The notes under the pieces: model-generated
The model's database searches: none
Seen by the model: only the letters and a program-made list of their open reading frames with translations
What the model was told of the DNA's origin: nothing
Program-made: the position numbers and the translations under genes
Part shown: one piece after another, positions 12,802 through 19,682 of the stretch
Layout: each line of letters opens with the position of its first letter
Position numbering within the stretch: the stretch's first letter is position 1
Assembly (NCBI RefSeq): GCF_002234675.1
Contig: NC_019860.2
Coordinates: forward strand, 17,476,536-17,540,535
Source: Oryzias latipes
Taxonomy: Eukaryota; Chordata; Actinopteri; Beloniformes; Adrianichthyidae
Length of the DNA: 64,000 nucleotides
Direction of reading: 5' to 3'

Positions 12802-15800
12802 TCATGCAGTCATTGGGTAGGAGCAGATGGACGCCCTCATCTGATGGCAGTCGGCTGTAGTCCACGAGCTCACACCTGAAACCAAGGGTAGGGACAGATA
12901 TACTTCAGATGTACCACCTTGTTCAGATTTTAGACTGACCGTAGTGGTTACTAAGAAATATAAAAGTAAAAAAACAAACTCCTTGACTTCCTGTTTGAGG
13001 CAGATTTTAGAGGTCAGTTTTAAAAGTTAGTCACTACATTTTTTACTCTGGTTCTAGAAGACTTTTTTTTTTTTTTTTTTTTTATCTTTGTGGTTAAAGG
13101 TTGACATTTGGGTCCAAGACTACAACAAACAAAAGCCAACTGAGGTCAAAAGTGTTTTCCTTTGTATTGAAGGCACATGTACGCCCTCAGCAACATGTGT
13201 TCAAGCAGTCCCCTTTAATATAAAAATGTCTATTAATATGCATGTACATGCGCATTTCAGGCTTGCGTGTTTAAAACTCAGGTTCGTGCATAGCATGCAT
13301 TCAGGCTCCACGTACAATTGAACGCGCGTTGCGATTTAAATCAGGTCAAACCTTGACCAGTCAGGGTCTGGAAGTGACTTAAATGGCGTCCCCTTTTAAT
13401 TCAAGGAAGTGCCAACTGTTTGAAAATTGATGACTGAAGACAAATGAATAATCAGCTGGAATTATGTAATACCAAGTCTTTCATAAATCAGAATAGAGCT
13501 GTGAAAGAAACAGCCTGGTGGAAGATACTTTGACATCTTACACTAAGCCTCTTCCATGTGCTAGAATACAGGAGAAAAAAGAAGAAGAAGAAAAAGCCCC
13601 TCCCTGTCTGTCCAGTGTGAACACCATGGTCTAAATAGCTGTCGACACCTAAATTCCAGTGCTCTGGTGTTAAAGAGCCGAGCTCTGATTTTATGGCTAT
13701 CTTGGTAAAATATGTTGTCACCCATCTCTCAAGTTAAAAATAAATAAATAATAATAACGGGCAAAACTGGTAATTGTTGGAGCGCAACTAAAAGTAAGGG
13801 GGCAACACACACATGCCAATCAGATGGCCACTCCCCCATTTTTCTACAAACTTAAAATTCATTTACAATGAGATTTATCAAAGAAAATCACAAAAAAACA
13901 AGACTTGTTGACTGGTTTGCTGTTCAGTGGGCCCATTCCAGGCTGCCTTGCTTAAATAGTGAGCCATCTAGTGGTTACTTGGTGAACTTACCTGGTTCCA
14001 TTTTTTTTTTTTTTTTTTATTAAAGCCTGTGTCAAAAAGGAAATAAGATTTATTTGTTTATTGACATGTAGGGTTTGTTTTCCCTGCCTATTCAGCTACG
14101 ATTCAGTGGTGTCCTATCTGGCCAAAATGGCAGAATTGATGTAATTTGGCCAATTTTTTGGCCTCCAAAAAACAGCAACAAAACCTTATTCTACGTAATT
14201 ACCGGTACTCACAGGTTTTTATGACCTGATATTATTTTTATTCTGTGTACGGAAAGTGTGTCAGCAGTGTTCAAAAACTGCAAAAGAAATGTGTAATTAA
14301 GTCGATACCTAACCAAAATCAGGGAAAATTCTGCATTTGTTGCTATAAGAAATCGATTAAGGATGCTACAAAAAATAAAAATAATAACTTAGATCCCTCT
14401 TTGAGCTGAAACAAAGGCCATCCAATTCTAAGTAGAAGGAGAAACTGAGCAGAAGTTATATATAACGATTGAACGCTTAGTAAATTAAAACAAACGAAAC
14501 TTTAGTTTGCGTCTTTTGAAATTAATGTGTGAGTCTGGAACGACAATTAAATGTATGAACTTCAAAATTTAGGTAAGTTGGGACCAGTCATACCTTTTCT
14601 GAACATCTCCACACAGAGAGGCTTGTCAGTATGAATGTTGGGATAACCCGGCATCCATCTGCTGTACCTCCACTCGGATCCATCTTCCCATGATGCCTTC
14701 TGGTTCTAAAGGAGGCAAAACACATTCCATAAACACAACCTTCTTTCTTGTTTTCTTTTTCTTAAACTGCCATCTCAGTGGGAAGATGGAAACCATGCAG
14801 CACTTCCAAATAAAAGTTCAAAGTTCAATGTTTTACCAAGGTACGAATAACACTATCTATCCTGGTGATAACGTATCTGACGACATTTTCCTTGGCCTTG
14901 TTTTAATGCCACAGTACATGGTCAGTCTGCTTTCATCACAGTCATTTTGGATGGTTTCCCATTGCAGTTCTTTTTGATTTCAAGATAAGTTTCGGAGAAA
15001 GAGCTCCAACTCCCACTCAGAAAACCTGGAAAGATGGGTTATTAAATATAAGGAGAGCTTACCTTGATGGTGCCTCCCAACCAGGTTGCCATGGGTTTCT
15101 TCTTGCCACCCTCTGTCACCAGGGAAACTAGGCGCTTATGCAGATTACTGCTGTTTATAGATACAATTTTGGCATTTGGAGCAAGGTTTTTGCAGACGTT
15201 CTGTCCGGAGAAAAGAAAAAAGTTTGTTTGTTTGATTTTGCAAGACCACAACTGTGCAAACTTAAAAAAAAATCAAAAAACGAAGGCAAAGACTATTTCA
15301 GTTGTTTATGTCTGCATGGATGAAGTAGAAAGTTATTTTAGTTCTAGAATGCTGTTGACAGTATGGTCAAACAGCTGCTTAAAGATCCCATAAGAGCCAA
15401 GAGCTGGTTGACTGATTCTATTTTATATAATGGGGTGGGATTATATAAGTTTGCTTCCTTCCATTCCCTTTCAAGCAATATTTACTAATATGACTAATTA
15501 TCCTCAGTTTGATAATCATTGTATGAATGTATAACCGATGATTGTATTGTTTTTGTGTATTATTCCTATTTGCTTGAAATAAACCATTTCAAAATCAAAG
15601 AAACAAAAAATTGAGAAGCCCTACCTGGGCATCATAGAAGGTCATCAACGTTGGGTTGAACACATAGCAAATTCCATTAATGGCACCCCCTTTACAGAAC
15701 CCTGTATTCCTTTCAGGTTCGGTTCCCTGTTTGAAACGATATTGAAAAGGTCTGAAGGATTCGGTTCCCTGTTGGAAACCATCATGGATAGGCAAGAAAC

Positions 15801-19193: not shown

Positions 19194-19682
19194 ATGTATA
19201 TATATATATAGTAATGTATAATGTATATGAATTATTCTTTGTTGAAATAGATGAAGACTCATTAAGATGAAGATCTAACCCTTTGGCAAACTACCAGAGA
19301 GGTCAACAACAAATCACACAACAACACAAGAATAGAATGATAGTTCAGACAATCCAGTATTACACAACACTTACGTGAGTAAGTTATCTTTAAATTACAA
19401 TTTTTTCCTCATTTAAATTCAAGTAACACTTGCTAAGACTCATTTTTTTGTGAGACTTTAGATAGCACAAAAAGTTATTTCAAAAGTGATGATCTCTAAA
19501 ACAAAAACACATTAAAAGTCACATCATCTGCAAAGAATATAACCATGAAATCATTAGGAAAAAACGGTTGTTCTTACAGAGAAAACGCAATTTGAACTGT
19601 TTTACCTAACGAAAACAACCACATATGAAGGCAGTGAAATCATACCTGACAGTGTCAGGAACAGAAGTGTTAGTTTAAACAT
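12802..19682 (-). CDS. Secreted C-type-lectin-like protein with 14-residue tandem repeats, 10 coding exons
   Basis: Coding exons, 5' to 3' on the minus strand: 19682-19646 (signal peptide, [12 protein letters not shown]), 18553-18500, 17973-17567 (repeat module A), 17302-17239, 17086-16680 (module B), 16415-16352, 16199-15625 (module C), 15200-15063, 14705-14594 and 12875-12802. All have GT/AG borders and consistent phases; the total is 1,932 nt, 643 residues plus stop. The last part of module C and the final three exons form a long-form C-type lectin domain of about 120 residues with six cysteines ([48 protein letters not shown], then [17 protein letters not shown]). The usual sugar/Ca2+ motifs EPN/QPD and WND are absent, so calcium-dependent sugar binding is doubtful. 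Modules A-C are arrays of [17 protein letters not shown] repeats with no obvious family match. An AATAAA on the minus strand at about 12,741-12,736 gives the likely 3' end. I do not recognise a named orthologue; role and tissue are unknown. Confidence 0.82.
13210..13560. mobile_element. Dispersed repeat family R4, copy 1
   Basis: In an intron of the lectin-like gene. Shares the blocks TACCAAGTCTTTCATAAATC, AGAATAGAGCTGTGAAAGAA and GGAAGTGCCAACTGTTTGA with 58860-59300, and related AAGCGCGT/TTGAACGC ends with 37370-37830. These look like decayed copies of one non-autonomous DNA element. No transposase remains. Confidence 0.5.
15690..16145 (-). repeat. Coding 42-bp tandem repeats, module C (about 10 units)
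   Basis: This part of the 575-nt exon consists of 42-bp units, each encoding a 14-residue repeat: D-G-(F/Y)-(R/K)-Q-G-T-E-R-F-M-(A/P)-I-(K/R). The central units ([14 protein letters not shown]) are nearly identical. Outer units are degenerate, for example [14 protein letters not shown] and [14 protein letters not shown]. The array ends in the cysteine-containing start of the lectin domain. There are no cysteines or N-glycosylation sequons within the repeats. Confidence 0.85.
16770..17020 (-). repeat. Coding 42-bp tandem repeats, module B (about 6 units)
   Basis: Repeats read [56 protein letters not shown] and [14 protein letters not shown], then a degenerate QGPSQESEP unit. The exon closes with [16 protein letters not shown], a relative of the lectin-domain start. 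This module is almost identical to module A. Confidence 0.85.
17657..17907 (-). repeat. Coding 42-bp tandem repeats, module A (about 6 units)
   Basis: The same five-plus-one repeat units as module B, offset by exactly 887 bp. The one replacement I could see is Phe for Val in the last regular unit ([14 protein letters not shown]). This exon is spliced after the short exon encoding [18 protein letters not shown]. Confidence 0.85.
19104..19190. repeat. (TA)n microsatellite
   Basis: About 85 bases of uninterrupted TA repeats, followed by interrupted TA up to about 19,226. It lies in the first coding-exon intron of the lectin-like gene. The open frame covering it is an artefact of the repeat. Confidence 0.95.

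Follow-up and report, generated by a model that had tools for sequence, protein, structure and literature searches.

The described proteins closest to the one reported here are the soluble antifreeze-like proteins of fishes and the eosinophil major basic protein (EMBP) family, both of which carry a C-type-lectin-like domain (CTLD). The former are short proteins, and in EMBP the canonical calcium motifs have changed; in their canonical form these motifs, EPN or QPD together with WND, are those of calcium-dependent sugar binding. A different class of secreted fish protein, the hyosophorin or polysialoglycoprotein precursors, consists of short tandem repeats that are glycosylated, and we know of no such precursor that contains a CTLD. 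Zelensky and Gready (PMC514892) describe introns upstream of C1, after the WIGL motif and between C2 and C3 as common to antifreeze-like and EMBP CTLDs, place a glycine at the fourth WIGL position in most antifreeze proteins (AFPs) and in EMBPs, and give an acidic neck as the mark of CTLD group XII (EMBP). Zebrafish eslec (si:dkeyp-75b4.10) is an eosinophil-specific C-type lectin which its authors liken to EMBP (PMC10821951). Furthermore, two other papers report nattectin-type lectins in a pipefish eosinophil cluster of 12 cells (PMC8828949) and fish CTLD proteins in the perivitelline fluid of eggs (PMC13079451), and a paper whose title pairs EMBP with heparin is cited in both PMC10821951 and PMC8828949.

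The gene described here lies on the minus strand of a 64-kb stretch of DNA (the window) from Oryzias latipes contig C2 (NC_019860.2, 17476536-17540535); coordinates below are positions in the window. When rebuilt from the DNA, its ten coding exons (19682-12802) are separated by nine GT-AG introns of compatible phase and join into a protein of 643 residues, which bears out the preliminary description. In order, the protein comprises a signal peptide, a linker, 22 copies of a 14-residue repeat (six in exon 3, six in exon 5 and ten in exon 7) and one six-cysteine CTLD. Coding exon 1 (19646..19682) opens with the ATG, encodes the greater part of the signal peptide and ends in phase 1, and exon 2 (18500..18553, phase 1-1) encodes the linker. 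Exon 3 (17567..17973, phase 1-0) encodes a head, six repeats and a decayed CTLD start (C-x8-C plus 14 residues), and is followed by a short, 64-nt converter exon, exon 4 (17239..17302, phase 0-1). Exon 5 (16680..17086) is a near-identical copy of exon 3, and exon 6 (16352..16415) an identical copy of exon 4. Exon 7 (15625..16199, phase 1-0) encodes a further head, ten repeats and a CTLD start; the rest of the domain is divided between exon 8 (15063..15200), which carries C1 and WLGG, exon 9 (14594..14705), which carries YPN and C2, and exon 10 (12802..12875), which carries the end of the CTLD (WTT, C3, C4) and the stop codon. An AATAAA polyadenylation signal (12736..12741) lies 3′ of exon 10. 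Donor sites were scored with a consensus matrix, using the GTs of the locus as the reference: seven of the nine lie at or above the 96.8th percentile, and the two that follow exons 4 and 6 score lower (91.7th). These two exons (17239-17302 and 16352-16415) end within a degenerate repeat, VPDQLRQ|GT, whose glycine codon is the GT donor; without splicing, the frame continues for 15 residues and then meets a stop.

Upstream there is a probable 5′ non-coding exon (19784..19806, minus strand). It has a CTCAG|GTAAG donor, with its 3′ end at 19784, and is joined to an TTTTGCAG|GATG acceptor that lies one base ahead of the ATG. A TATA-like box (19838-19831, minus strand) is found upstream of this exon, and we guess that transcription starts some 25-30 bp past it. 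Some 150 bp ahead of this presumed start site there is a double GATA motif, TGATAGAGATAA (19958..19969, plus strand), one of four close WGATAR pairs in the 64 kb. This motif was rejected as proof of eosinophil regulation, being too weak, with a one-mismatch match in 33 of 100 shuffled windows; it gives a faint hint of granulocytes.

The window hosts several other features. A neurobeachin-type gene occupies 1498-8495 on the plus strand, with a BEACH match above the cut-off in one exon and PH-BEACH and beta-propeller matches below it in two more. This gene probably ends at a stop at 12030, in which case only about 90 bp separate its ATTAAA (12644) from the AATAAA of the lectin gene (12741-12736) and the two convergent genes nearly touch. 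On the minus strand are an ARHGAP20-type RhoGAP gene (29820-33803; of four frames tried, two match RhoGAP and RHG20_PH) and an RRM gene (56567-58193; RRM_1 matches in two exons), which we take to resemble a paraspeckle DBHS protein. Finally, a 147-bp tandem repeat of 2.8 copies (44568-44989) has a unit that includes GGTTCAAATCCC, presumably similar to a tRNA-type B box and perhaps derived from a SINE.

The protein has the features of a secreted, cationic molecule. Its most hydrophobic 19-residue stretch is residues 1-19, and windows starting past residue 15 never exceed 0.82; the hydropathy scan found no second hydrophobic stretch or membrane segment anywhere in the protein. This confinement of hydrophobicity to the N-terminus supports the signal peptide that had been proposed. 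The isoelectric point is 9.41 for the whole protein, 9.46 for the CTLD (net charge +9) and 9.26 for the neck (net charge +10). The repeat had been called basic, which holds for the repeats of exon 7 (pI 9.2) but not for the exon-3 block (pI 6.5), so not all blocks are basic. It had also been said to lack cysteines and N-glycan sites, and indeed none is present in any repeat: the only sequon in the protein is at N552, within the CTLD, and beyond the six cysteines of that domain (C513, C522, C539, C613, C629 and C637) there are three further pairs (143/152, 300/309 and 360/368).

A single match to Pfam Lectin_C (E 1.6e-13, residues 529-638), together with the six cysteines, confirms the one complete CTLD that the preliminary description reported. 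By whole-sequence score the top PDB chains are multi-CTLD receptors (LY75, 62.9 bits). Among chains with one domain, first place goes by a narrow margin to an antifreeze protein type II (2py2, 41.3 bits). Next come a factor IX/X-binding protein of snakes (39.7), another antifreeze protein of type II (39.3) and a single CTLD of the mannose receptor (37.1); EMBP scores 29.4 bits. Elsewhere in the genome, the nearest CTLD exon is on contig C18 (36% identity over 39 residues, E 0.024). The C18 gene, at 1.877 Mb, agrees with the lectin gene in the position and phase of all three CTLD introns, the two domains are identical at 36 of 109 residues (33%), and among single-domain PDB chains it too scores best against type II antifreeze proteins. 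This antifreeze-like gene retains EPN and WDD, and one or more of its CTLD exons recur 32 kb away, at 1.909 Mb.

The exon ends of the lectin gene fall at the intron positions of the antifreeze-like group and of group XII, and the WLGG of exon 8 has the glycine at the fourth WIGL position that most AFPs and the EMBPs share. Like those proteins, the product has a single CTLD and, as judged by the Lectin_C match and the hydropathy window, is soluble and secreted with no membrane segment. It is not a short protein without a neck, the neck being about 500 residues long, and membership of EMBP group XII fails because that neck, with its pI of 9.26, is not acidic. On intron positions and WLGG, the CTLD would be placed with the soluble fish antifreeze-like and EMBP-like domains, a placement for which the lead in pairwise scores is narrow. 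Aligned to the EPN and WDD of the C18 gene are YPN and WTT, and the canonical EPN/QPD and WND motifs are absent. Given these replacements, classical calcium-dependent sugar binding is unlikely.

The neck is another matter. The earlier count of about 22 repeats stands, but because exons 5 and 6 are a near-perfect copy of exons 3 and 4, just 16 of them are distinct. Among these 16, Gln6 is invariant, Gly3 and Glu9 are each conserved in 15, Gly7 in 14 and Thr8 in 13, and a lysine or arginine directly precedes the invariant glutamine in 13. Within exon 7 the central repeats are up to 95% identical at the DNA level and those at the edges fall to about 45-66%, a gradient of the kind that unequal exchange commonly leaves in a minisatellite. 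Since 42 divides by three, the mere openness of a frame is weak proof of coding. Substitutions were compared in 12 of the 22 repeats, the six of exon 5 and four divergent ones at the edges being set aside. Pooled dN/dS is 0.267 in the predicted frame compared with 0.41-2.34 in the remaining five, which is support and not proof, since the repeats are not independent of one another. An AlphaFold2 model of exon 7 has a mean pLDDT of 32.8 and is uninformative on the fold of the repeat.

No convincing relative of the repeat emerged from the searches. In Pfam, with the whole protein as query, the repeat is unmatched; besides Lectin_C, four families appear at E 0.036-0.3, each below its cut-off. In the PDB, exons 1-4 gave no match to the repeat and one match at E 0.61. 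Searching the 734-Mb genome (734,051,031 bases, 25 contigs) with exon 3 returned ten matches at E ≤ 1, four of which are the locus itself; none of the other six (three on C1 and one each on C7, C8 and C11; E 0.017-0.67) is convincing. The three on C1 were rejected as copies of the repeat because they sit in the frame of a minisatellite with a 7-residue repeat. At 4.867 Mb on C1, a minisatellite of GFRQVRR type fills about half of an open frame of 406 residues and mimics the 14-residue repeat. Pattern matches in viral contigs (five) and prokaryote genomes (66) included no confirmed relative. The literature searched, in which subscription journals are thinly covered, contained no paper with any of four fragments of the repeat or with a teleost C-type lectin bearing a 14-residue tandem repeat. 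The preliminary description recognised no family. This remains so for the repeat and the architecture across Pfam, the PDB (exons 1-4), the genome and the literature, but not for the CTLD, which fits the antifreeze-like/EMBP clan. It is likely that an orthologue exists under some automatic name.

How did such a neck arise? Exons 3-4 and 5-6 belong to an 887-bp tandem duplication (16194..17971), whose copies (16194-17084 and 17081-17971) differ at two of 891 aligned positions, one intronic (16218) and one coding (16802, V/F). Exon 5 proper is that of exon 3, and the sequence upstream of it is that upstream of exon 7, one base apart; the switch from exon 7 to exon 3 falls within the first bases of exon 5. 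Introns 2 and 6 have an identical 3′ end of 25 bp. A chimeric start at a shared acceptor is the expected trace of unequal crossing-over, and the sequence here points to such an event. Exons 3 and 4 add up to 471 nt, and the pair is flanked by phase 1 at either end, so it can be copied with the frame intact.

A further relationship can also be traced. Exon 7 exceeds exon 3 by exactly 168 nt, i.e. 4 × 42 or four repeats. Its head matches that of exon 5 at 13 of 26 positions, and its tail matches that of exon 3 at 8 of 25, ungapped, with both cysteines and the exon end equally spaced. Exons 3 and 7 are thus homologous end to end, and exon 3 is a copied repeat-plus-CTLD-start exon. Added to the rest of the CTLD, the tail of exon 3 contributes 2.5 bits and that of exon 7 contributes 10.2; the CTLD start of exon 3 has thus decayed. 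No such history was found for the neighbouring elements: the similarity of exon 4 to exon 8, of which it might be a degenerate form, and that of intron 3 to intron 7 are no better than those of shuffles. At the level of the sequence, the neck is seen to have grown in two ways, by 42-nt units and by a frame-neutral cassette of two exons, and it seems to have been lengthened recently by duplication of the exon pair.

The duplication could instead be an assembly error or a mis-joined haplotype, and the true gene would then consist of exons 1-4 and 7-10, with 486 residues and 16 repeats. We consider this a genuine possibility, but not the probable one. The two mismatches are about the level of an allelic difference, and the 25-bp identical acceptor at the unit ends might mislead an assembler. 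On the other hand, the two sequences meet cleanly at that acceptor in a chimera, as from unequal crossing-over, one of the mismatches is coding, and exact 40-mer matching found no second duplication of this size in the 64-kb window. An error of this kind is in any case compatible with a secreted cationic CTLD protein.

As the 42-nt units and the cassette can both recombine unequally in frame, neck length is expected to differ between individuals. Furthermore, exons 3, 5 and 7 share homology and a phase-0 end, so that any of them could splice directly to exon 8. Taken to its conclusion, this would suggest a length-polymorphic effector lectin, in which minisatellite and cassette vary the neck and alternative joins of exons 3, 5 and 7 to exon 8 give 6-22 repeats, the neck being a new repeat family that would define a new CTLD subgroup. 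We regard this extension as rather doubtful.

The reading that we favour, tentatively, is of a single-locus teleost gene whose product is secreted and cationic, has one CTLD of the antifreeze-like/EMBP-like clan on a length-variable neck, and has a putative role in defence. The exon that starts the CTLD also carries the in-frame 42-nt coding minisatellite, and the encoded array may serve as a long neck or spacer, holding the domain or bringing several together in a multimer. The CTLD could bind an anionic or protein ligand without a canonical calcium and sugar site, by analogy with EMBP and heparin, and the protein would act in innate defence in granulocytes, mucosa or the egg. It is possibly a secreted defence lectin of granulocytes or mucosa. 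The eosinophil lectins of zebrafish (eslec) and pipefish (nattectin-type) are a lead towards granulocytes; the granulocyte is one option only, as C-type lectins also occur in fish eggs. The structural, egg/skin-surface or immune role suggested in the preliminary description is likewise a guess.

The egg features in the next explanation as well, in which the product is a structural or adhesive matrix protein of the egg envelope, skin or mucus, the array being cross-linkable or self-associating and the CTLD docking it to a surface. The invariant glutamine of each repeat (16 of 16 distinct copies, 13 preceded by Lys/Arg) might, for instance, be a substrate site of transglutaminase, an enzyme that PMC13079451 lists, as it does C-type lectins, among zebrafish egg protein groups. 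The clan in question, as described in PMC514892, is one of soluble proteins, and we regard a matrix role as unlikely. It is very improbable that the prediction fuses a decaying or non-functional repeat region with a CTLD gene: the weaker donors of exons 4 and 6 and the poor CTLD start in the exon 3 tail (2.5 against 10.2 bits) would suit such a fusion, but all ten exons are open, the repeats are under frame-specific constraint, and exon 7 alone holds repeats and a CTLD start in one open frame. Least credible is a tandem-repeat polyprotein cut into pieces like the hyosophorin precursors of fish eggs, for although the repeat blocks are separated by KR/KKR sites (residues 139, 176-177, 296 and 333-334), the arrays themselves have a dibasic site only where the degenerate sixth repeat ends in exons 3 and 5. 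Cleavage would not release single repeats, and the repeats have no N-glycan sequon.

A secreted defence lectin with a variable neck would be of interest for several reasons. A common fish defence-lectin fold is joined here to a coding minisatellite that matches no described family in the searches made, and an exon-pair duplication has been caught almost at birth, with its crossover point legible. If copy number varies among individuals, the length of a lectin neck could be linked to phenotype in a laboratory fish. If the protein is one of granulocytes, it would show how far the granule lectins of fish have drifted from mammalian major basic protein.

Compared with known systems, the gene shares with the hyosophorin type a secreted product of short tandem repeats, and differs from it in its sequon-free repeats and its CTLD. 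With zebrafish eslec the likeness is one of description, both being fish C-type lectins. The EMBP family shares the intron positions of the CTLD and WxGG; in the lectin gene the CTLD is basic and its canonical calcium motifs are altered, the neck is basic and repetitive where that of EMBP is acidic, and EMBP's PDB score is below that of type II AFP. The soluble antifreeze-like proteins of fish, and the C18 paralogue among them, have the same three CTLD introns and phases and WxGG, and the C18 gene also has an apparent signal exon that ends in phase 1. From these the lectin gene differs in its repeat neck of about 500 residues, and in the YPN and WTT that replace EPN and WDD.
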